Positions 3,001 through 37,394 of a stretch of 64,000 nucleotides of DNA are shown here, one piece after another. A program made the translations under genes and the position numbers. Under the pieces are notes generated by a model that saw nothing but the letters and a program-made list of their open reading frames with translations, was not told where the DNA came from and made no database searches. Numbering within the stretch: the stretch's first letter is position 1; every line of letters starts with the position of its first letter. Source of the DNA: Tilletiopsis washingtonensis (taxonomy: Eukaryota > Basidiomycota > Exobasidiomycetes > Entylomatales); NCBI RefSeq assembly GCF_003144115.1, contig NW_020311999.1, positions 663,583 to 727,582 of the forward strand, in the 5' to 3' direction.

Positions 3001-4745
3001 CACGGCCCGACATTTCGGACAACCCGACGCCGCTGATGGCGCCGCTTCGCACCGGCGCGCACCCCACGTCACCGACCTACCACCGCCCGAAGAACAGCGC
3101 CGACCTGCGCACGTTGCTCGCCGAGGCAGGCGCGCAGCGTGCATCGACGGAGCCCGCGCACTCCCGCTCCGGCTCGGGCAACGTCAAGCGCGCCTCGCAC
3201 GAGCAGCATGAGGAGGTCAGACGCCTCTCGCAGTCGTCGCCGCCGCTGGCGCCGAAGCGCACCAGCAGTCTGGGCCGGCGTGCCGCTGCAGCCATGGCAG
3301 CAGAGGTGCGCGTGCGCAAGGCCTCGCAGTCGACGCCAGCCTCCGCAGGCCCGAGCGGCGAGACGCCCAAGCTGGCGCCAGCTCTCTTCCTGCCGCCGCA
3401 GTCTCCGACCTTGCCCGTCGACACCACCATCGCGGACTCGCCATTCCCTAATCAGTCGCTGCCGGTGCCGCCGCGCAAGGTCAAGTCGAGCTCGAGCAGC
3501 ATGGACAGTCGTACGCCCGAGCCAGCGAGCATGCCGACGTTCGAGTCGGGCACCTTCGGCACGCCGTACGTCGACGCCGGCGCCGCAGCGGCCACGAGCT
3601 ACGCGGCTGCGCCCATCTCGACACCGACGCTCGGCACCTCTGCGTCGCGCCAGGCGAACGCGTCGTACTTCGCCGAGGCGCGAGGTACGCCGCCTCAAGT
3701 CGTTCGCTCGCCTTTGGCCGGCACGCAGCGTACGCCGCGCCAGAACACGTCGCCGCACAGCCGCTGGTCGCCGAGCTCAGCGCAGCGGTCGCCTCGGTCT
3801 CGCGGTCTCGACCCCAACGTCGCGGCTCGGCGACACCGCGCGGGCCTGTCTGCCTCGTCGTCCGACTCGAGCCACTCGAACCGCAGCCACCTGCCGCACG
3901 AGCTCTGGACCGCCGACGACGACCCGGATGCGTTTTCGCAGCTCTTCCTGCGCCGGCAGCCGGAGCACGAGGCCATGCTCGGCGTCGTCGTGCCGCGCGA
4001 ACGGGCAGTCAGCGCATCGTCGCAGGGCGCCGAGAGTGGGCACTGCGACGTCTCGCCGACGCGGCCGCGCGCGGACTCGGAGCGCTCGAAGGCCGACAGC
4101 GAGCTGCAGGAGGGCATTGCCACGCCGCAGCAGGCCTTGCTGCGCACGCCGCGCCTGGGCGACCGCAGCGTCAGCCCGCGCTCGCCTTTCTACTCCAGCG
4201 GCGACGAGGCGCAGGAGACGACGTTCATGGCGCAAATGACGCCGGGCGAGCGCTACCGGGCCGCTCTCGGCGTGCGCCGCGACAGCGACACTGTCTCGAC
4301 GCTTGTGCAGCACTACCTCTCGCCCGAAGCGCGGGCTCGCTTGTCTCCTTCTACGACGCCTTTTGCAGACAACAGCAAGCTCTCGTCTCCGGCGCGTCTG
4401 GGGCGCGTCAGCGCGGAGCTGCCGCCTGCGCGCCGGGTCCTTCAGACGCAGCGCAGCCTCAACGCGCTCGATGCGCACAAGAGCCCTTCTCCTGAGCTCC
4501 TCACGCCGTCGGCCACCATCGACTTTGACGACTACGTGGCGCCGCGCAGCAGCAGCGACCAGCTCGCTTCTGCGCGCCGCTCTTCGTTCCTCGCGCCGCC
4601 GTCGCCACGTCGCGGCAGCGTCGGCGAGGACGACGGGCGCGTGTCGATGGACAGCATGGGCAGCTACGGCGTGAGCCCCTTTGTGCGGCCGCAGGTGTGG
4701 CCCGATCCGCCGAGAAGCCCCGGCGGAGCGCGCGTCTTCCCGTGA
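1..4745 (+). CDS. Large Ser/Pro/Arg-rich low-complexity protein, 5'-partial
   Basis: The reading frame is open from the left edge (first full codon at base 3) to a stop at 4743-4745, so the true start lies outside the window. About 1,560 residues are visible. Composition is dominated by Ser, Pro, Arg and Ala with many SP/TP and RxxS patterns, typical of a disordered, heavily phosphorylated cytoplasmic or cortical protein. The only stretch that looks folded is a charged, possibly helical segment at about 1420-1520 (ELRDLVLTAEARKKYRLLQQ), which may be a short conserved motif. A canonical 60-nt intron sits at 2499-2558 (GTGAGC donor, CTGAC branch site, CAG acceptor); it is a multiple of three without stops, so reading through it also keeps the frame. 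No catalytic domain is recognised and I assign no function. It converges on the flavoprotein gene ending at 5083. Confidence 0.8.
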   Translation, partial: RFRSAARPGSSGSGSAPTSASAFAASIGASRSFHTAGHGPSSSGGSQNPSYRVPPPREPHDYADFYVPYHGPISPRPGGGAAQFEVLELDQGSPRRGPALPPKDDRPAGRLGGPYGKSARHSRTSSAGTPQKGALRSDGFGVEGLGIGNAPSLPPGAAGRTSELQRGDLGRSDDANERLERFFQHGAASGDRTGSPTDRFRPALGFGLPTAYVHGGNTPRLCDSPPTRMGHISGLPSLMRADYQETELRRRDGTAMQSSSSQPHLQQPFSYRGAAAVPRAHGNAPPTSVPSSDQDDSPTLPSDRFTPERRTVGLAPSISSNEGGSAGWTSAFEGGNRSAATSMTSLRAPSMAAHGSLQGQPKRLLSQSSGDALASGPASRPRARTASSSDVRARAAQVIGPHEAPARVAPPAVAGRGQPTAPAAQVTPPTMWQQGAPLLSPIAASTLGESSSPGPSSQHQRPSSRPEEVVAASELRDLVLTAEARKKYRLLQQLHLDEANAHAPEHGWYDANSGCERVLMPRPKLKNRTSIDGSSDTHSRRSTYASVERNRPRPRDSDPKTQHLRRKTESNPDIAAQALAQERLAHNAASVPTRRRAHTDASPPLVQAPFFHHRAAPLPPPAFPPQDDRACSPMRSCHPRASGTIEVDGAHVWPRKTPTPTSAGMLVNPLEASPDLETVIAQGIALDRDREQWRREYARSIGGHEHRRSRSQDRRSSSSSTRPRNRRFHWDQSEPLPADAGSVAQRGTLELPRSSTAQPPRQRTLRYVRSSPQLGEKERERFEPRAPSPPSPVPTSFQALSPFRGGRKRAQSMGDDGRNKQRDSGWSGVFRKVSCARGAPAQHGTDTTLSRQRRSRAPTPSSPVLGSPRTDRDHSRVVSASLATQRRMRNSASWDKAVVAAEQPLHIHASRRQSWRPSSSVGGRSTPAQDRADRTVRAQLVFDEPVIIGRQPGFDGRAEEPSSTGLTRSASDSSGVFRFPSSGPAPSTPGTSYGVAFSSPRPDISDNPTPLMAPLRTGAHPTSPTYHRPKNSADLRTLLAEAGAQRASTEPAHSRSGSGNVKRASHEQHEEVRRLSQSSPPLAPKRTSSLGRRAAAAMAAEVRVRKASQSTPASAGPSGETPKLAPALFLPPQSPTLPVDTTIADSPFPNQSLPVPPRKVKSSSSSMDSRTPEPASMPTFESGTFGTPYVDAGAAAATSYAAAPISTPTLGTSASRQANASYFAEARGTPPQVVRSPLAGTQRTPRQNTSPHSRWSPSSAQRSPRSRGLDPNVAARRHRAGLSASSSDSSHSNRSHLPHELWTADDDPDAFSQLFLRRQPEHEAMLGVVVPRERAVSASSQGAESGHCDVSPTRPRADSERSKADSELQEGIATPQQALLRTPRLGDRSVSPRSPFYSSGDEAQETTFMAQMTPGERYRAALGVRRDSDTVSTLVQHYLSPEARARLSPSTTPFADNSKLSSPARLGRVSAELPPARRVLQTQRSLNALDAHKSPSPELLTPSATIDFDDYVAPRSSSDQLASARRSSFLAPPSPRRGSVGEDDGRVSMDSMGSYGVSPFVRPQVWPDPPRSPGGARVFP

Positions 4746-5082
4746 GCTGAGCAATCGCTCAGCGTGCTACCCCATCCCACCACCTTCTCTTCCTTGCCTC
4801 GTTCATACCTTGTGTTCCACCCGCCCGTCACCGTGCTCTCCTCGCCTTCGCCTTCACCTCGCTGCCCATTCGCTGCTCTATTACCCGATCTCCTCCCACT
4901 ACACCCTCCCTTGGCGCACCCGATCCTGCTCTGCAAACCCCACTGCATCTGCTCGCCCAGCCTAATCTATGCTGCCGCGCGGGCCCTTGGCCGCTGCAGA
5001 CTTTTCAGTCGACCTTGCGTGAGGCGAGAGAGCTGCTGTATTAGAGGAGGCAGGTGGAGGGCACAGGCGAGCATCTGCGCAG
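4746..5082. other. Intergenic, convergent 3' ends
   Basis: This 337-bp gap separates two converging stop codons. It is pyrimidine-rich on the + strand at 4770-4900 and probably holds the 3' UTRs. No gene or repeat is visible. Confidence 0.6.
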
Positions 5083-25725: not shown

Positions 25726-27284
25726 TCATGTGTCGAGGCCGGGCAGGAAAAACTGACGGCACTATGCTGTGAGTGTCTCGAGCTGGGGGAGCTGCTGCAG
25801 TGCCCGCGATACTCACCGTCATGACCCCTCGGCTGCTGCGCTGGCTCGTGTCGCCGATGTAGACCTGTGGCGCGGCACGCATCAGCTGCGGTCCTATGAG
25901 GTAGAGCCCCAGAGAGGGGGGGGGGGGGGGGAGGAAGGCGCAGGAGCACGCACATAGAAGATGGCGCAGTGCGCCTCGCAGATGCACGCGATGATCGAGC
26001 TGGCATCGACGATGTTGGAGGAGAGGAGACGCATGAAGGACTTCATGTCGAGCTTGACCTGTGCGTGCGCACGTGCGTTCAGCAACGCAAACGCGAGGAG
26101 CGCGAGGAGTGGCACGCACCGAGAAGTGATGGCTTGCAGGATGGTCGTCGTCGCTTTGTGTGACTGTTTCCCTTCATCAGCCATTTTCTCCCTTCTTGCA
26201 GTCCGCGAAGACTCACTGTCGTCTCCCTTCGGTCTCGCACAGTCCTTCCACGTCGTCTCGACTCTGCAGTCATCCTTCTCAATCGCCAGCTTCAGCTCGC
26301 CACTGCGGCTGGCCGAGAGCAGGATGTGGTCCGCCGTGAGCGAGTGCATGCGCTCGGCCACCTTGCGCAGCTTGGAGATCTTGGCGGGCAGGAAGATGTG
26401 CACGTCGGGCACGGGCGAGACGGGCTCTTGGATGCGGTTCTGGTGCGAAAGCTGAGCGGCAGAGAAGGGCCAGTGTGGCGGACATGACGCACAATGTCGG
26501 CCGGCTTGAGGATGCGGATCAGCACCTCTTGCACGATCTCGAGGCGCGCGCCGTTCATCGTCTGGCGCGCGCAGCATAAGCGTCAGTGCGGCGATCGTGC
26601 GAAGAGAGGACAGGTCGCAGGCTCGGCCGGACATGCTGTGCCACTGCTGAGTGCCACGTGCTGTCTTCCTCACAGCCTGTCTCGAGCACCTAAGAAGTTG
26701 CCCCCCCCCCCCCCCCCACGGGGGACCTCTCTCCGCTCCTTATTTCTCCTCCACTCACCGTATTCCCAATGCTGAAGCTCAGCAGCGGATCACGATCCCT
26801 CTTCGCGAGGCGCATCGTGACGTCTGCCGCGTCTTTGCCCGTGGAGCGCAGCGCCTGCAGCAGCGGCTCGGTGGCGATCTCGAGGTTAATCTGGTTGTTG
26901 AAGTTGGACTCGATGCGGCTGGGAGGGGAACGGTAAGCACGGCAAGAGGATGGGACAGAGGAGAGGGCACGCACTAGTCGGCGTTGAAGAATGCGTCCTA
27001 TTGCGTGCGTCAGCATGGCGGTATCAAGGAAGCGGCAGGACACGTACGACAGGCACCGTGCTGCACGTCACCCGCCGGGACAGGCGTCAGCAGTGCGCAC
27101 CTCGCGCTGCGCCCGCGCTGCCGGCTCACGACCAGATCTGCATGCTCTCGAGCGCCTCGCCGGGCACGATGATCTGCACGGCGGCGGCGCTGAGGCGGAT
27201 GATGCACTTGGGCGACGTCTTTGCCACGGCCTGGATCATGCGCAGGAACGTGGGCGCGTCGGCGAAGGAGACGCGCAGCCGCAT
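25726..27284 (-). CDS. HUS1: Checkpoint clamp subunit HUS1
   Basis: Exons, minus strand: 27284-27130, 27060-27048, 26997-26975, 26918-26759, 26561-26493, 26439-26217, 26163-26120, 26058-25954, 25864-25817, 25752-25726; 867 nt, 288 aa, a normal HUS1 length. HUS1 joins RAD9 and RAD1 in the 9-1-1 ring loaded at damaged DNA. Seen in order: LRVSFADAPTFLRMIQAVAK, CIIRLSAAAVQIIVPG, DYRIESNFNNQINLE, EPVSPVPDVHIFLP, LDMKSFMRLLSSNIV, IIACICEAHCAIFYVYIG and C-terminal GVMTFFLPG. Exon 2 is a 13-nt microexon and exon 3 is 23 nt. The acceptor before exon 6 was taken at 26440 (53-nt intron); the in-frame alternative at 26452 would give a 41-nt intron. Intron 4 (197 nt) and intron 8 (89 nt) hold long G or C runs. 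It is divergent from RFA3. Confidence 0.92.
26701..26717. repeat. C17/G17 homopolymer in a HUS1 intron
   Basis: Seventeen C on the + strand, hence G17 in the HUS1 intron 4 transcript. A second run of 16 G (+ strand 25916-25931) lies in HUS1 intron 8, where it reads as C in the transcript. Confidence 0.9.
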
Positions 27285-27631
27285 CGCGCGAGAGGCAGAG
27301 GGGGTGGCGGTGAGGACTGGCAGCGGAGCCGCAGCTCAAGCTCAGCGGCGGAGGCAGCTGCAGGCGGCGAGGCGGCAGCGGTGGTGCTGAAGCTGGCGAG
27401 GTGCGGCGAGGGAGGAGGCGGTGGAGAGGCAAGCGGCAGCGGCAAGTCAGAGTGTTGGACCCGAGGCAGCCGGCGCGCCTGTCCGACTTGCGCAGCTGCT
27501 CCCACACGCTGCGCGCGCGACGCGTTAAGTGGCGCGTCGGCGCCGCCTGCGCTTCCTCCTCGCCTTCGCAGCGGGCCGCGCTGCTCCGTCCTCCACTCCC
27601 CCACCCTCGTTCCACCTGACACTCACACACC
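27285..27631. promoter_or_regulatory. Bidirectional HUS1/RFA3 promoter with MCB box
   Basis: This 347-bp region is the shared 5' space of two DNA-replication/repair genes. It contains ACGCGT at 27520-27525, the core of the MluI cell-cycle box bound by MBF in yeasts, inside ACGCGTTAAGTGGCGCG. The overlapping 9-mer CGCGTTAAG (27521-27529) recurs, inverted, in the RPC19/DNMT5 promoter. Binding by an MBF-like factor is inference. Confidence 0.5.
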
Positions 27632-28463
27632 ATGGACAAGGTGCGCCTCCTCACGCATCATACCTTGCGACCTCTGTTCACGCTGCCCGCAGCCAACGCC
27701 CCTCATCAACTCCTCCATGATGGCCAACCACGCGGGCCAGGTGGTGCGCATCGTCGGCAAGGCGGCGCAGCTGGCGGGCAGCGAGCTCGTCGTGCAGACG
27801 TCGGACCAGGGCAACGTCGCCGTCGACCTGGCGCGCGACACGCAGCTGCGCGGCGAGGGGTACGTCGAGATTGTGGGCAAGGTCGACGAGAACGGCGAGC
27901 GCCTGCGCGAGTTTACCAGCGTCGACTTTGGCGACAAGCTGGGTGAGTGCCGCGCTGAGATGGGGCAGGGTGCGGTGTGGGCGCGCGAGAGTGGCGTCGG
28001 GAGCGGCAGGGTGCGGTGTGGGCGCGCGAGAGTGGCGTCGGGAGCGGCATGGAGGGGACGCTATGGCGCGCGGATGAGCAGCGGCCGTGGCGCAGTCCAG
28101 CCCTGCCAAGGTGCGATGGCGCCCGGCCTGCTGCTCGGGCGCTCTCCGTGGCGTGGGCGGAGAAGGCTAGCGCGGCGAAGAAGAAGCAGTGTCGGGACGC
28201 CAAGGCTGTGCTGCAGAACATGCCATGCGACGGTCGGATGCTCCGTGATGCTGTACATGCGGCGGCGCCGGCCAGCTACGTCAGGGCCCGGGAGAGGGCT
28301 GCCATCGTCGCCGTCCCAGCCGCGTCTCTGTCGACTCTTCCCGCCTTCGTCTTTCGTCCTGCGCACGCTTACATCCGGCATGCGCGCAGACATGGCGCTC
28401 GTCGAGGCAGTGGTGCAGCTCTCGGCAAAGGTGCCCGCGCTCTTCGCCGAGTCAAGTAACTGA
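27632..28463 (+). CDS. RFA3: Replication protein A small subunit (RPA14/RFA3)
   Basis: Exons 27632-27640, 27693-27942, 28390-28463; 333 nt, 110 aa, the usual size of the family. The protein is a single OB fold: VVRIVGKAAQLAGSELVVQT, NVAVDLARDTQLRGEGYVEI, VGKVDE and a C-terminal trimerisation helix (DMALVEAVVQLSAKVPALF). It would form the heterotrimeric single-stranded-DNA-binding RPA core with RFA1 and RFA2 in the nucleus. The first coding exon holds only Met-Asp-Lys. The second intron (27943-28389) is 447 nt, roughly eight times the local norm, and contains a tandem duplication; its donor (GTGAGT) and acceptor (GCGCAG) are normal and the frame is kept. The gene is divergent from HUS1, with which it functionally belongs. 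Confidence 0.88.
27964..28049. repeat. 41-bp tandem duplication inside RFA3 intron 2
   Basis: Two perfect consecutive copies of a 41-bp unit (27964-28004 and 28005-28045) plus four more matching bases. The unit is G-rich and includes GTGTGGGCGCGCGAGAG. Confidence 0.9.
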
Positions 28464-28798: not shown

Positions 28799-29810
28799 TC
28801 ATGGCCTCGCAGCGGCCTGTGCCTTCTTCTCCGCCTGGATGGCCCGGCCGCGCTCCTCCATGGCGCGCAGGGCCTCGGGCGACACCTCGTCGCTGTGCCG
28901 CTCGTAGTTGCCCTCGGACAGATTGGCGGTGTAGGCATCCTCGATGGTGACGAAGAGCGCCTCGAGGTTCTTGATGGCATCCAGCAGCGCCGAGAGGGCC
29001 GAGAGATGGTCTGAATGTGCGAGTATGTCAGCGCAGTGTTCCGGTGCAACAAGGGATTGCAGAGCCAGCCTCTCTCGCAAGAGACGAATTCAGTAGGAAC
29101 AATTGGTCTAGTTGACTCGGTCGTCAGGTGCAGGCGTCCCGTAGGACAGCAAGCATGCCGATAAATCCCTTAAGTCAAGATCATCACGTATCGTCCTCGC
29201 AGGGCTGGCTCTCTAAGCGGCAATGGGTACTCACCATACATCTGGACGCGCAGGTGGATCTTCGGCTCGCTCGGGTGCGGGTTGCTGTAGCCGCAGAACT
29301 CGACCTTGGGGCTGGCAGGGCATGCGGCGTCAGCGAGCGGCTCGCTGCCGAACACGGCCTTTACCGGGCCACGACAAGCGAGCTTGCGGCGCAGCCAATC
29401 CCTCAGCAACGAAGAATTCCATAGTGTGTGACAAGTCGCACCGCTACTAGGGCCGCCCACAAGGAGCGTCCGGTCGCTCGACAGAGTCGTCTATAATCCT
29501 CGGGAAGCGGCGCCGCCCGCACGTCCGCCTTGGCCCGCGGAGCAGCTGGACTCACTTCTTCATGAGCATGTAGCGTAGCGCATTGCCGAGCGTGTGGTCC
29601 TCGTCCTTCAGGCAGAACGTGGCGGCGCTGAGGTCCTTTTCGTGTCCTGGCAGCTGCAGAGAGGGATGAGCGGCAGGGCAGGCGTGCAGGCGCGCGCACA
29701 CGCACAATGCTGATCTTGTCGCTGAGCTTGGGCCCCTCGTCGATCTCCATTGGTGCGGGCGGGTCGGCCACGGCGGCCTGCTCGGCGCCGACGCCGGGGA
29801 CTTCGGCCAT
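28799..29810 (-). CDS. RPC19: RNA polymerase I/III subunit AC19
   Basis: Exons, minus strand: 29810-29706, 29653-29556, 29311-29235, 29010-28799; 492 nt, 163 aa. AC19 pairs with AC40 in the alpha-like assembly platform of RNA polymerases I and III. The L-type dimerisation motif is plain: FCLKDEDHTLGNALRYMLMK, then NPKVEFCGYSNPHPSEPKIH, then the C-terminal helix (LSALLDAIKNLEALF). The family is usually about 140 aa; the extra length is an acidic, low-complexity N-terminus and a charged C-tail. Intron 1 is 52 nt, but introns 2 (29555-29312, 244 nt) and 3 (29234-29011, 224 nt) are about four times longer than the local norm. Intron 3 carries a box C/D snoRNA. The gene is divergent from DNMT5. 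Confidence 0.92.
29083..29195 (-). ncRNA. Intronic box C/D snoRNA, snR41/U62-like (18S rRNA guide)
   Basis: It lies within RPC19 intron 3, same strand. Box C GTGATGA is at 29187-29181 and box D CTGA at 29093-29090. The terminal stem GACGA (29195-29191) pairs with TCGTC (29087-29083). Immediately upstream of box D, the guide CCAATTGTTCCT (29106-29095) is a perfect 12-nt complement of the conserved 18S rRNA segment AGGAACAATTGG. By the box D plus five rule the target is the A following AGG, the position methylated by yeast snR41 (Am541) and human U62 (Am590), as I recall the mapping. A second CTGA at 29127-29124 may be box D'; its guide target is not recognised and no clear C' box was found. 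The length, about 113 nt, is within the C/D range. Confidence 0.8.
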
Positions 29811-30130: not shown

Positions 30131-33100
30131 ATGCCGTCCGGCCGCGTCTCGAGCGCCTCGCGCGCCTCGCGCGCCTCGGGCATCGGCACGAGCGCCTCGA
30201 CGCCCGCCAAGCTGCAGCGTCCGGCGCGCAAGTCGGCGGCCCGCAAGTCGCAGGACTTCATCGTCATCTCCGACGACTCGGACTTCGAGCTCTCTGCGTC
30301 GGCCGAGGCCGAGTCTGACGCCTACTCGGCCTTCTCTGCGGGCTCGGCGATGTCGAGCGGCGACGAGGAGCTGCCAGAGGATGAGAGCGCCGAGCTGTCG
30401 AGTGCCGGCGAGGCGTCGCCGCGCCTGACGCTCGACTCGCGCTCCGACTCGGGCGACGACGAGGTGGCCACGCCGAGCGATGTGCCGTCGAAGCGTCAGA
30501 AGGTGCGTTGCTCCTGTGTCGAAGCAGCGCTCTGCAACGCCCACTCACGCCGCGCGCTGCAGACCGAGGACGGATACTTTGACACTGGCAGCGACCCGGT
30601 CGTCCTGCTGCCGACGATCGCATCGCTGAAGAGCAAGCAGGCCAGCAGCAGCCAGTCGCCGCTGCGCCGCGCCATGAAGCAGAGCACGCTGTCGTTCGGC
30701 CAGCGGAAACCGCCGCAGCCCGCGCCCGCCAAGGCTAAGGCCAAGGCGCCCGCAGCGAAGGAGCGCCGCGCCGCGACGCCCGATTTCATCGTCGACTCGT
30801 CCGACGAGTTCATCTCGGACGGCGACGAGGGCGCGCCGCGCAAGCGCAAGCAGGCCAGCGGCAGCAAGGGCGCGGCGGCAGGCAAGAGCAAGCGCTGGGC
30901 GCCAGAGTTCCGCGCCGGCAGGAAAGTGCGCTACCTGCCCTTCGTGCCCAAGTACGAGGACGCCGTGGCCATGGCCCACGCTGCACGCGCCAAGGAGGCG
31001 GCCGGCGAGCTGCCGCCCATGAGCGCGCTCGACGACATATTTGGCGACATTGTGCGGCGCCTCGACACGGATGCGATTGTCAGCCTCGCCAAGACATTGC
31101 AGGTGCGTCCCATGGCGGCACCACTAATTTGGCACAGCTCACATTTGCGTCGCAGGGCCGGCCACTCCGCGTCGCTACCATGTGCAGTGGCACCGAGTCG
31201 CCGCTGCTGGCGCTCAAGCTCATCAGCCGCGCAATCAAGGAGCAGCACGGCCTCGACATTGAGATCCACCACGTCTTCGCCTGCGAGATCGAGCCGTACA
31301 AGCAGGCCTACATCGAGCGCAACTTCTCGCCGCCGATTCTGTTCCGCGACGTGTGCGAGCTGGGCGACGATCAGGCACACACGGCCTACGGCGCCCTCGT
31401 CGACGTGCCGGGTGACGTCGACATTCTTGTTGCGGGCACGAGCTGCGTCGACTACTCGGGCCTCAACAACATGAAGAAAGGCCTCAACGACGGCGGCGAG
31501 AGCGGCCGCACGTTCTTCGGCATGCTCAATTGGGTCGAGAAGCACCAGCCGTCGATTGTCATCCTCGAGAACGTCAAGTCTGCGCCGTGGGCCGACGTCG
31601 CGCAGGCGTTTGTGGACATCGAGTATGACGTGAATGCTGCGGCTTGCGGTGCTGCACGCTGGAGCTCACCGCTGCTTGCAGTCCGCCTTCTCGAACACGT
31701 TCGACACGAAGAACTACTACATCCCGCACACGCGCCAGCGCGGCTACCTCATCGCGACGCGCAACACCAAGGACGACTACGCGGCCAACTGGGAGGCGCT
31801 GACCATGAGCATGGTCCGGCCTGCGTCTTCCTCGCTCGAGTCGTTCCTGCTGCCGACGGACGACCCGCGTATCCAACACGTGCGCCAGCAGTTCGCACTG
31901 GGCGAGGGCTTTGGTCGTTCGCGCTCGACAATCGACTGGAGCCGCTGCCAAGGTCGCCACGAGTTCGCACGCGCCGATGAGCATCTCGGCAAGGCTCGGC
32001 CGTTCACGGCATGGGAGGAGGGCGGCGGCTGCAAGCTCTCGCACGATGGTGAGTGAAGCCGCTTCTCGGCGCGACCTCGAGCTCACCTCGTTGCCTGCAG
32101 CATGGAACGAGTGGGCGCTGCCGATGCCCGAGCGCGTGCTTGACCTGCTCGACATCACGACGCTGAGACACGCCAAGATGGGCATCGACGCGAGCTTCAA
32201 GAGCCGCGTGTGGGAGCTGAGCCAGAATGGTGAGCGGCTGCAGCGCACCTGGAGAAGGTCGCACGAGCTCACGCACACCTCGCAGTCGATCGCAACATTG
32301 CGTCGTCTCGGCCAGGCACCTGCGGTTGTCTGACGCCGTCCGGCATGCCGTATCTGACGTCGCGCGGAGGCCCGCTGGTCGGCCTCGAGGCGCTTTCGCT
32401 GCAGGGCCTGCCGCTCGACGAGCTCCTGCTGTCGCGCGAGACGAACGATCAGCTGCAGAACCTGGCCGGCAACGCCATGTCGTCGACCGTCGTCGGCTCG
32501 TGCGTCTTTGCCGCTCTCCTCATCGCCCAGCCCGATCTGCAGCGCCGCCGGGAGAAGGTCGACGTCGAGATGCAGCAGCAAGAGGAGACGGAGGCCGCTG
32601 CGCCGGCCATGATCGGCGAGCTGGCAGAGCAGGCCTACGAGCTCGACTCGCACGCCGACAAGATTGACCTGGCCAAGCTGCTCGAATCGGCCGTCGCCAG
32701 TGCCCAGCGCTGTTCGTGCGAGGGCCGCGCTGCCACGTCCGACCAGCCCATCTTCCAGTGCACGCAGTGCAAGCACACGGCTTGCGGCCGCTGCAAGGGC
32801 CGCCCGGAGCACTCCTTCGAGCCCTTCCTTGACGAGCGCCTCGACACGGACGACTTCGAGGCGGAGCTCAAGGCGCTGCTGCCCATGCGCATCGTGCTGA
32901 ACCTGCCCGAGGCGCCGGCAGACCCTGCCGAGCCGGCGGCTGGCTACGAGCGCTGGATCGAGCGCGTGCAGATCGTGCTTTCGTCCGCCGAGCTTCTCTT
33001 CTCCGGCCTGCTGCGCCAGCGCAGCTGGACGGCCGTCTTCGCCACGAGCTCTGGCGATGCTCGGCTTGAGCTTCTGCTCGACCCGGCCGACCCACACTGG

Positions 33101-36100
33101 CGTCTCTTCATCGAGCCGGAGCGCGAGGAGCCGACGAAGAGCAAGCTGCGCTCGATGCTGCTGCACCCCGTCGCGCGCATGCGCCTCACGCTCGACGCCA
33201 AGAGCCTTCTCGACGGCGAGTGGGAGCTCAAGCTGCCGACCAACGAGAAGTTCACCGCGTTCATCACCGGCGGCGGCGAGCTCGTGCCGACGTGGGAGGC
33301 GGCCATGGGCATTGGCGGCGACTTTGCCAACACGAAGCGCTTCAGCAGCATGGAGGTCAAGGTCGACGGCCTCGGCGACGTGGCTGGCACGTACGACCTG
33401 CTGCCCAAGTGCGGCACGGCCAACGGCGCCTTGCACCTTCGCCGCGAGGTCACGGAGGCCGCTGCGAACCGCCGTGCCATCGCCGTGCCGCGCTCCTTCC
33501 TCTTCCTCGACACCGACCGGCTGCGCGACAAGGACCACGACTCGTTTGTCTTCTCCTCGCACATCGCGCCGCTGCCGTTCCCACTCGAGCGCACAGTCGA
33601 CGCCCGCGCGCCGCTCGGCTGGCGCCTGCCGGTGCCGAACAAGAGCGCCGCCGAGGGCGCGACCAAGGAGCTGAAGACGACACTCACGCTCGAGGGCCGC
33701 TGGGTCGCGAGCTCTCTCGCGATGACCCTCATCGAGCCGGAGCACGCCTCGCGCTCTCGCATCGGCGCGTCTGCTGCGCCTACGACGCTCGATGCCGACT
33801 CGCGCTGCGTCGACGCACTCACTGTGCTGAGCTGCTCGGCGCGTATCGAGCGCGGCGATGAGCTCAACCGCGACATCTGGCCGACTGTTGAGGGTCAGTG
33901 GGAGAATGTGGACCTCGAGCACAAGGCGACGACGACCTTCAACGCGCTCGCATGGCTCGTCGAGCGCGTGCCCGCTCCGGCCATCAGCGCGGAGTGGACG
34001 GCTGGGCCTACGGTCGACACCGAGCACTCTCCCACTTGCGCGATTTGTGCTCCGAAGCAGCCCGACATCCAGTGGATCGCCGCTGCGGGCCAGCCGACGC
34101 GGCCAATCGAGAACGAGGAGCAGGCGGCGCCGTACGAGCATGCGCTGAAGAATCGCCCGCCGCCATTCGTGATGCAGCTGCGCATCGAGGACGGCATGGC
34201 CATCGCCCGCATCGGCGTCAACCCGCTGACGCTCATGCACCGTGCGCTCTCGCGCCTGCCGGTGCTGAGCCCGGCGGTCAAGACGACGCTGTCTTGGCGC
34301 CTCAGCAAGCAGGACAAGTCGCTCGACGAGTTCAACATCCCCGCATATACGCTGCGCTCGAACCGCAAGGACCCCGAGGCACCGACGCCGGAGCTCTTCA
34401 CGATGGAGCTGCGGCCGGAGCAGCGCCGCTCCCTCAGCTGGATGCTCAAGCAGGAGAGCGAGGACGTCGAGCCGTTCGTCGAGGAGGAGGTCTCCGAGGG
34501 CCTGCTGGCGCCGATGCGCTGGCGCGCCGAAGGCAAGGCTACACGCGAGGTCGTGGTCCGCGGCGGCGTGCTTGCCGATGCCGTCGGCTATGGCAAGACG
34601 GCCATCTCTCTCGGCCTCATCGCGGCGCGGAAAGAGGCGGCCGAGCAGCGCAAGAGCGACGACAAGCGCTTCGTGCATACCAAGGCCACGCTCGTCATCG
34701 TGCCGCCGCACCTGTGCAGGCAGTGGGAGAAGGAGGTCGAGAAGGTGAGCGGATCGAAGCTCCCATCCCTGGCTGTGCTGACGCGTGCTTGCAGTTCACT
34801 GGCGACAGCCTCAAAGTCGTCGTAATCCACTCCAAGCAGGAGCTCAACAAGACGACGATTGCCGACATCCAGGCCGCCGACATTGTCATCATGTCGGTGA
34901 CGATCTACAAGAGCGACGCGTACTTTGAATCGCTGGCACGCCTGGCCGCGGCGAACCCACTGCCCGCCACGGCCGGCCGCTTCTTCGACGCTGCGCTCGA
35001 AAAATCGGTCGCGGCGCTGCGCAATCGCATGGTGGAGCTGCAGACCAAGGGCGAGGGCGCGCGCAAGGTCGCCGAGTCCGTCAAGGACAAGGTCGACTTC
35101 GACACGTCGCACCTCACCACGGCGAAGAAGAGCAAGCGGCTCATCGGCCAGGCATACGCGGAGGCACATGCCGAGGGCAGCGACGGCGAGCCGAGCGCGA
35201 AGGGCAAGGGCAAGGCGCCGGCAAAGGCAAAGGCCAAGCCGAAGCCGAAGCGCCGCGCCGCGGACAGCGACAGCGAGCTGAGCGACTTCATCTCGGACGA
35301 CGACGAGCCGAAGCGCAAGTCCAAGGCCAAGGGGAAGCCGAAAGCGGCCGCGCCCAAGGCGTCGATCGGGCCGGACCCCTGGGGCCTCGGCAGCGCCGCC
35401 GTCCGCTCGGACTACACGCGGCTGCACGCTGCGCCGCTTGAGTGCTTCATGTGGGAGCGCGTCGTCATCGACGAGTTCCACTACATTGCCGCCAACGCCG
35501 AGCGCACTTTCGCTGCGATCGCCAAGCTCAGCGCGCACTCCAAGTGGATCTTGTCGGGCACCCCGCCGACGGCAGACTTTGCCGACGTCAAGTCGATCGC
35601 CACGTTCCTGAACATCCACTTGGGCATCGACGACGATGCCGACTCGACGAAGCAGTCCGTGCGTCTGCGCCGCGAGAAGGCTCGCACGCTGGTGGAGAAG
35701 TTCCGCAACTTCGTCGAGGTGCGCTCGCCAGCCTGGCATCACCGCCGTCAGGCGCGTGGCCAGGCATTCCTGGACCAGTTCGTGCGGCAGAACGTCGCCG
35801 AGATCGCCGACATTCCCTTCGTCGAGAGCATGCGGCCCGTGGCCATGCCGGCGGCCGAGCGTGCCTGCTACCTCGAGCTGGCGCACACCATTGAGAGCCT
35901 GGACCTGCGTCTGGCGCGCCGGGTCTTCAAGGCGACAGCCAAGACGAAGAAGAAGGGCGGCGCCGACGGCCAGAACGACCGCGACGAGCGCCTGCGCCTC
36001 ACCGTCGGCGAGTCGAGCTCGCCCGAGGAGGCCCTGTCGCGGCAAGCGGCGCACTTTGTGCTCGACGAGGACATGGACACGACGGACGCGGCCGCGGCGT

Positions 36101-37394
36101 GCGAGTTCATCGTCAGCGAGCGCGAGAAGCAGCGCGACGAGTGCCTCGCGCAGCTCGAGCGCGAGATCCGCGACATTGCCCTGCCGCAGCACTTCCTGTG
36201 CCTCGTCACGTACGAGTTCCGCGACGAGCACAACTGGCCGCTCGTCGTGTTTGCGCAGAACGTCGAGAACGGCTCGTGGGGCGACCCGGAGTGCAAGCCG
36301 AAGCTGATCGAGCGTGAGTGGTGTTGTGCGAGGTGCGAGGTGATGGCGCAGCTGCTGACTCCTCCGCAGTGCTGAAGAAGCTCAAGTGCACGGCTGGCCC
36401 GGCACTCTCTTCCGTCAAGGAGGGCCGCACGCGCTATCTAAAGCTCAAGCCGAAGAAGGGCTACTCGAAGGAGGAGGCGTGGGCCGAGGAGGCCTCGCTG
36501 CGCAACACGACGCACCTGCTTCAGCGCGTGAGTCGAGCCGGAGCAGCTGCTCGGTGGCCTCGCTGATCAGGTCTCCACACAGCTGCGCAACGAGTATTGG
36601 GCACGACAGCAGTCGCTGCGCTACTTCACGCGCGTGCGCGACATCCAGCGTGCGAGCAAGAGCGGCGAGCCACTGGGCGTCGTGTGCCCGTCGTCGAAGT
36701 GCGACAAGGGCGGCGTGGAGCTGCCGCTTGAGAAGATTGCGCTGGCGTCGACGTGCGGCCACACGGGCTGCTACGAGTGCGTGCTGCGCGATGCCTACAT
36801 CGGCCAGTGCTGCACGCCCGGCTGCAACGCGCTCGCCAAGCCCACGTCCATCGTCAAGGCCAGCTCGCTCGGCATCGAGGAGCCCGGCACGCGCTACGGC
36901 GTCAAGCTGCAGCGCGTCGCCGACCTCATCAACTCGCTGCCCGACGAGGAGCGCATCCTGCTCTTTGTGCAGGTGAGTGCGGCTCGATGTGCGCGCACTG
37001 GACGAAGCTAATCTCCGCCTCGCAGTTCGACGGCCTGCTGCGCAAGGTCGCAGACGTGCTCGAGGAGTCGGGCGTGTCCTTCGTGCGCCTCACGGGCACG
37101 TCGAGCAACCGCAGCAACCAGCTCGACTCGTTCCAGAGCGGCGGGGACCGGGTGCTGCTGCTCAACGTCGCCGACGAGAGTGCCGCTGGCTCCAACCTCA
37201 CCGTGGCGAACCACGTCATCTTCCTCTCGCCGCTCATCACCGAGGAGGCGCAGCAGTACCACGCCACGATGGAGCAGGCGCGCGGCCGCGCCATCCGCTT
37301 TGGCCAGACGAAGGAGGTGCACATCCACCGCTTCGTCGCCATCGACACCATCGACCAGTCGACGTACGAGAACCGAGAGCAGAAGACGCTCTGA
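30131..37394 (+). CDS. DNMT5: DNMT5: cytosine methyltransferase fused to SNF2 ATPase and RING
   Basis: Exons 30131-30502, 30563-31102, 31156-31629, 31682-32048, 32101-32229, 32286-34744, 34795-36313, 36370-36527, 36583-36972, 37026-37394; 6,777 nt, 2,258 aa. DNMT5 enzymes maintain CpG methylation with ATP hydrolysis. Methyltransferase (about 305-700): motif I ATMCSGTESP, motif IV GTSCVDYSGLN with catalytic Cys (about 401), motif VI VILENVK, motif VIII HTRQRGY, motif X NLAGNAMSSTVVG. SNF2 ATPase (about 1390-2258): GYGKT, VIDEFHYI, WILSGTPP and QARGRAIRFGQTK, with a Lys-rich acidic insert between motifs I and II. A RING finger (about 2041-2089) sits inside the ATPase, as in this family. The N-terminus is disordered and acidic, with IVISDDSD (44-51), a SUMO-interaction-like motif, and KQSTLSF (163-169), resembling a PIP box. 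No chromodomain is seen. Intron 1 is 60 nt and in frame. The acceptor at 36582 is preferred over in-frame 36570. Confidence 0.95.

Follow-up and report, generated by a model that had tools for sequence, protein, structure and literature searches.

Box C/D snoRNAs are stable nucleolar RNAs bound by Nop1, Nop56, Nop58 and Snu13, and their guides, of about 10-21 nt, lie upstream of box D or D' and place the target nucleotide at the fifth position from the box (D+5). In yeast, both Am 18S-541 and Gm 18S-1126 are listed under snR41 in the available part of a published table (PMC8307265). In Neurospora crassa, the available part of PMC2780460 describes CD13 as an intronic snoRNA of 84 nt with one D guide, 12/0 pairing and the target 18S-Am538, and lists it against snR41-I, snR41, snR41Y and U62A/B; the second, Gm1126-type target of snR41 is attributed there to a separate RNA, CD9. 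According to the available text of PMC8476143, 82% and 72% of fungi, respectively, retain the intron positions that house snR59 in RPL7 and snR191 in NOG2, functional coordination between guide and host having been proposed for both pairs. Here we describe an intron of the basidiomycete Tilletiopsis washingtonensis, intron 3 of RPC19, from which, with high probability, a box C/D snoRNA is made that has a single guide and belongs functionally to the snR41-I / U62 class.

The host gene RPC19 and the elements within intron 3

The window, that is the whole 64,000-nucleotide stretch of DNA that was analysed, comes from T. washingtonensis, a basidiomycete assigned by the source taxonomy to Ustilaginomycotina, Exobasidiomycetes and Entylomatales. 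RPC19 (AC19), which encodes the small subunit common to RNA polymerases I and III, lies on the minus strand from 29810 to about 28800 and is interrupted by three introns of 52, 244 and 224 nt. Splicing these out gives a 163-amino-acid protein that is 100% identical from end to end to a database entry for T. washingtonensis and matches Pfam RNA_pol_L_2 at 2.9e-29; in a protein search 209 proteins matched RPC19, and many of those among the 120 listed matches were from basidiomycetes. The boundaries of intron 3 (GTGAGT...CAG, 224 nt, 29234-29011, minus strand), the host of the predicted snoRNA, were taken from this identical protein. From motif inspection and distances, CTGACAT at 29025..29031 (minus strand) is the probable branch-point element of intron 3, with branch A 29028 located 17 nt from the final intron base.

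The original prediction had called intron 3 four times the usual length, which holds only in part; RPC19 intron 2 (29312-29555), at 244 nt, is even longer than the snoRNA-bearing intron, and intron length is therefore a poor clue. A second snoRNA in intron 2 was considered and gained no support: Rfam up to E 10 gave no match to a eukaryotic RNA family in that intron, its sole match being a bacterial sRNA on the opposite strand (15.4 bits, E 5.7), and its folding, considered with an H/ACA snoRNA in mind, was no better than that of shuffled sequences (z 0.05). Elsewhere in the window, 76 amino acids from the translation of a plus-strand ORF at 26991-28463 gave a match at 8.3e-15 to Rep_fac-A_3, the Pfam family of replication factor A protein 3. 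At 32345-36375, the plus strand has two ORFs that overlap in different frames and match separate parts of the SNF2-related domain, a pattern consistent with one SNF2-type gene split by an intron.

The predicted mature box C/D snoRNA occupies 29085..29192 on the minus strand, as delimited by boxes, guide, stems and intron position, and is about 108 nt long if its ends are assumed to lie 5 nt beyond box C and box D. Near its 5' end is box C, GTGATGA (29187-29181), without mismatch to RTGATGA, and near its 3' end a perfect box D, CTGA (29093-29090), the distance from box C through box D being 98 nt. One spacer base separates box D from the 12-nt guide, CCAATTGTTCCT (29106-29095). The inner closing stem is formed by GGACGA (29196-29191) and TCGTCT (29087-29082) through five Watson-Crick pairs and one G-U pair, and is offset by 3 nt from box C and by 2 nt from box D. 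Outside it, the longest perfect pairing of the flanks joins AGAGCCAGCC (29212-29203) with GGCTGGCTCT (29070-29061) in an outer stem of 10 bp. All of these elements are on the minus strand, and the intronic boxes and closing stem on which the original prediction was based are thus present. Between the boxes, CCTGACGA (29121..29128, minus strand) is a possible degenerate box C' (TGACGA) of uncertain role.

The predicted mature snoRNA is separated from the 5' and 3' splice sites by 42 nt and 74 nt, respectively, and from the likely branch A by 57 nt, distances that are competent for processing out of the spliced intron. N. crassa snoRNAs lie mainly 41-60 nt from the 5' splice site, according to the available part of PMC2780460, and the 42 nt observed here fall within this range, which supports an intron-encoded snoRNA; the flanking stems and the splice-site distances together appear compatible with intron processing. 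Shuffling experiments placed different weights on the stems. When the flanks were shuffled 2000 times by mononucleotide, a perfect stem of at least 10 bp appeared 6 times, and the folding of intron 3 as a whole surpassed that of 196 among 200 shuffles (z -2.40). As regards the energy of the terminal stem calculated from 20-nt ends, 68 of 2000 flank shuffles folded as well, and 760 of 3193 arbitrary pairs of segments at the same spacing matched this value in the GC-rich window; the inner-stem energy is not distinctive.

The 18S target, the Rfam snR41 family and a second guide

The 18S reference used in this study is a surrogate and not the 18S of T. washingtonensis, and it was located with a short 18S pattern run against genome contigs. 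The search gave four contigs (L001-L004), all identified as eukaryotic rDNA by Rfam, and one of these, L004, contains a full, intact 1800-base 18S of the fungal type. We take this 18S to be of the Saccharomyces type, the letters at A541 and G1126 agreeing with yeast numbering. The four contigs are titled bacterial (Blastococcus, a Flavobacteriales MAG, Brenneria and Planomonospora) yet contain eukaryotic 18S rDNA, which looks like contamination, and L004 additionally carries 5.8S and the start of the LSU.

In the surrogate, 18S positions 538-549 read AGGAACAATTGG, the complement of the intron 3 guide, and the two form 12 Watson-Crick pairs in which the fifth nucleotide upstream of box D is matched to A541 in the numbering of this 18S. 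The guide together with its box, CCAATTGTTCC...CTGA, is of the A541 type and directed, as in snR41, at AGGAACAATTGG and A541 of the surrogate. This 18S segment was present in all four rDNA contigs, but the search pattern held all of it except the first letter, so that this agreement does not amount to an independent survey. The perfect 12-nt complementarity to 18S that had been claimed from the intron alone, and the single A to which the fifth-nucleotide rule was said to point, were both recovered on the surrogate 18S. The guides that had been named for this site can also be retained, as A541 stands under snR41 in the yeast table (PMC8307265, available part) and CD13 is entered beside both snR41 and U62A/B in the accessible part of PMC2780460.

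Comparison with curated RNA families gave a more divided result. At gathering thresholds, Rfam returned no match over the whole window, whereas a threshold-free scan of 28901-29400 up to E 10 returned four families; apart from snR41, neither scan matched a snoRNA family. The snR41 family (RF01218) had the highest bit score of the four and was the sole match within intron 3, with 18.3 bits against a gathering score of 50 and an E value of 2.8 over 4227 families. A match to KCNQ1OT1_1 outside the intron had a lower E value, 2.1, and reads as chance. The snR41 alignment rests on the guide and the ACUGA that follows it, with the same spacing from guide to box. It spans 29133-29075 and brings the box C region of the model onto the inner TGACGA; these ends were not adopted as the ends of the snoRNA because the closing stems and a box C without mismatch sit further out. 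After the ACUGA of the A541 guide, 55 model positions are skipped, from which we read the A541 guide as a D' guide in yeast and as the D guide in intron 3. The family comparison that accompanied the original prediction, with snR41 and U62, is accordingly upheld in the alignment of snR41 at the guide and not in the score, and the curated model probably misses the snoRNA at threshold because it describes the two-guide yeast form. Judged by target and anatomy, the RNA would work like snR41-I, while by the curated threshold of at least 50 bits it is no scored member of RF01218.

A second guide within the same RNA would be compatible with an snR41-I-like function, and we regard it as unlikely. In this case a D' guide would target 25S rRNA or an snRNA, and in its favour are the length of about 108 nt, compared with 84 nt for CD13 of N. 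crassa, and the possible C' (TGACGA). There is also an 8-nt complement to 18S located 2 nt upstream of an inner CTGA, which would point at position 774. Against this, when duplexes of at least 9 nt with at most two G-U pairs were collected for 18S and 5.8S, those besides the main guide were only 9-10 nt long and contained one or two G-U pairs, and no such duplex was found at 1126, so the second guide of yeast snR41, to Gm1126, has no counterpart here. A second guide to 18S or 5.8S was rejected on these grounds, the G-U-containing duplexes of 9-10 nt and the 8-nt complement being the only candidates and none of them being at Gm1126. For the large subunit, Rfam recognised in L004 the first few hundred bases (4627-4963), the inspected stretch beyond consisting of N, and a source of 25S was also sought by a pattern scan of viral contigs and a plasmid search, which gave nothing.

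A possible silent duplicate, and chance

The locus could also be a snoRNA pseudogene or a silent duplicate, either unprocessed or dispensable, with the working A541 guide encoded at another site such as an snR41-snR70-snR51 cluster. Such clusters occur in nearly all fungi analysed, Basidiomycota included, according to the available part of PMC3596301, and movement of snoRNA genes within genomes is known (PMC8476143, available part). Pseudogenes of snoRNAs, however, are prone to box mutations and to instability of the terminal stem, as stated in the accessible text of PMC12309372; in intron 3 neither box C, box D nor the guide shows a mismatch, and the stems are complete. Furthermore, the members of N. 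crassa cluster III that are named in the available part of PMC2780460 are CD6, CD9 and CD17; CD13, the guide of the A541 type, is not included among them and provides a precedent for an A541 guide at a separate locus. We therefore consider an inactive copy very unlikely and continue with a presumably functional snoRNA from RPC19 intron 3.

To gauge coincidence, the window was scanned on both strands for CTGA motifs having a perfect 18S or 5.8S complement, 9 nt or longer, whose end lay no more than 2 nt away. A box C, one mismatch being tolerated, was also required 50-200 nt upstream of the CTGA. Only the intron 3 site passed among 410 CTGA motifs; its complement is 12 nt long and its box C is free of mismatches. 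In 60 dinucleotide-shuffled windows, compared with 18S only, guides that reached 9 nt or longer and had a box C arose on average about 1.7 times per window; uniqueness among the 410 motifs is thus weak evidence on its own and, 9-nt sites being common in shuffles, the argument is carried by the 12-nt length, the faultless boxes and a target that is already known. Guides of 12 nt accompanied by a box C (one mismatch allowed) were seen in none of the 60 window shuffles and in 6 of 20,000 shuffles of the intron, the latter number rising to 16 when box C was not required. The guide 12-mer has one occurrence in the window, and its expected count beside the 410 CTGAs, from base composition, is about 1.6e-5. 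An ordinary intron that by accident combines C and D motifs with an 18S-complementary 12-mer has in its favour that, if box C is disregarded, a shuffled 64-kb window contains on average about 0.18 matches to 18S of at least 12 nt beside a CTGA (11 in 60 shuffles). In view of the shuffles that demand box C, and because guide and spacing fit a methylation site already known, this explanation is nevertheless extremely improbable.

Choice of host and known counterparts

From general knowledge of box C/D snoRNAs, the pathway would begin with transcription of the host RPC19 gene by RNA polymerase II and release of intron 3 by splicing. The C/D motif would then assemble the box C/D proteins with the help of the flanking stems, and debranching and exonucleases would trim the intron down to the snoRNA of about 108 nt. 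Pairing of the guide with 18S 538-549 and recruitment of fibrillarin (Nop1) would lead to 2'-O-methylation of the A equivalent to yeast A541.

The guide is of a known kind and the host gene alone may be new. A literature search in which the listings were short, and which is weak evidence of absence, gave no report that we recognised of a snoRNA in RPC19, and the string 'rpc19' has no occurrence in the available parts of PMC2780460 and PMC3596301; neither snR41 nor U62 is mentioned in the available part of PMC5040776. In Basidiomycota the snoRNAs of the snR41-snR70-snR51 cluster are intronic and other cluster snoRNAs have been scattered to new sites, as reported in the accessible portion of PMC3596301. 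Hosting in RPC19 may represent a relocation, an extra copy or a lineage-specific arrangement. One scenario, which we find distinctly doubtful, is that the A541 guide left the snR41-snR70-snR51 cluster for the RPC19 intron in the smut-related lineage and was kept as splicing jointly sets the output of polymerase and guide. The suggestion in the original prediction that RPC19 hosting couples rRNA modification to rRNA synthesis is likewise a hypothesis. What is gained is a well-supported annotation that the curated covariance model misses at threshold and perhaps also a new host gene for a long-known guide RNA, which helps to trace changes of snoRNA host in fungi; apart from these, the biology is routine.

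At the site of the A541 guide, the human 18S letters differ in part. Human U62A/B and plant snR41Y are counterparts of CD13 at the 18S site, by their listing in the available part of PMC2780460. The snoRNAs snR59 (RPL7) and snR191 (NOG2), as far as described in the accessible text of PMC8476143, resemble the snoRNA of intron 3 in being located in introns of ribosome-biogenesis genes, but their guides, targets and hosts are others. S. cerevisiae snR41 (RF01218) shares with it the A541 target, the guide core CCAAUUGUUCC and the spacing to the ACUGA box, and differs in also covering Gm1126 (PMC8307265, available part), for which the T. washingtonensis snoRNA has no guide; the yeast snR41 cluster is moreover transcribed without introns, as given in the available part of PMC3596301. 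N. crassa CD13, as it appears in the available part of PMC2780460, is likewise intronic, with a single 12-bp guide upstream of box D and an equivalent 18S target, and differs in its length of 84 nt compared with about 108 nt in T. washingtonensis. The closest known counterpart of the predicted RPC19 intron 3 snoRNA is thus the CD13-type single-guide form.
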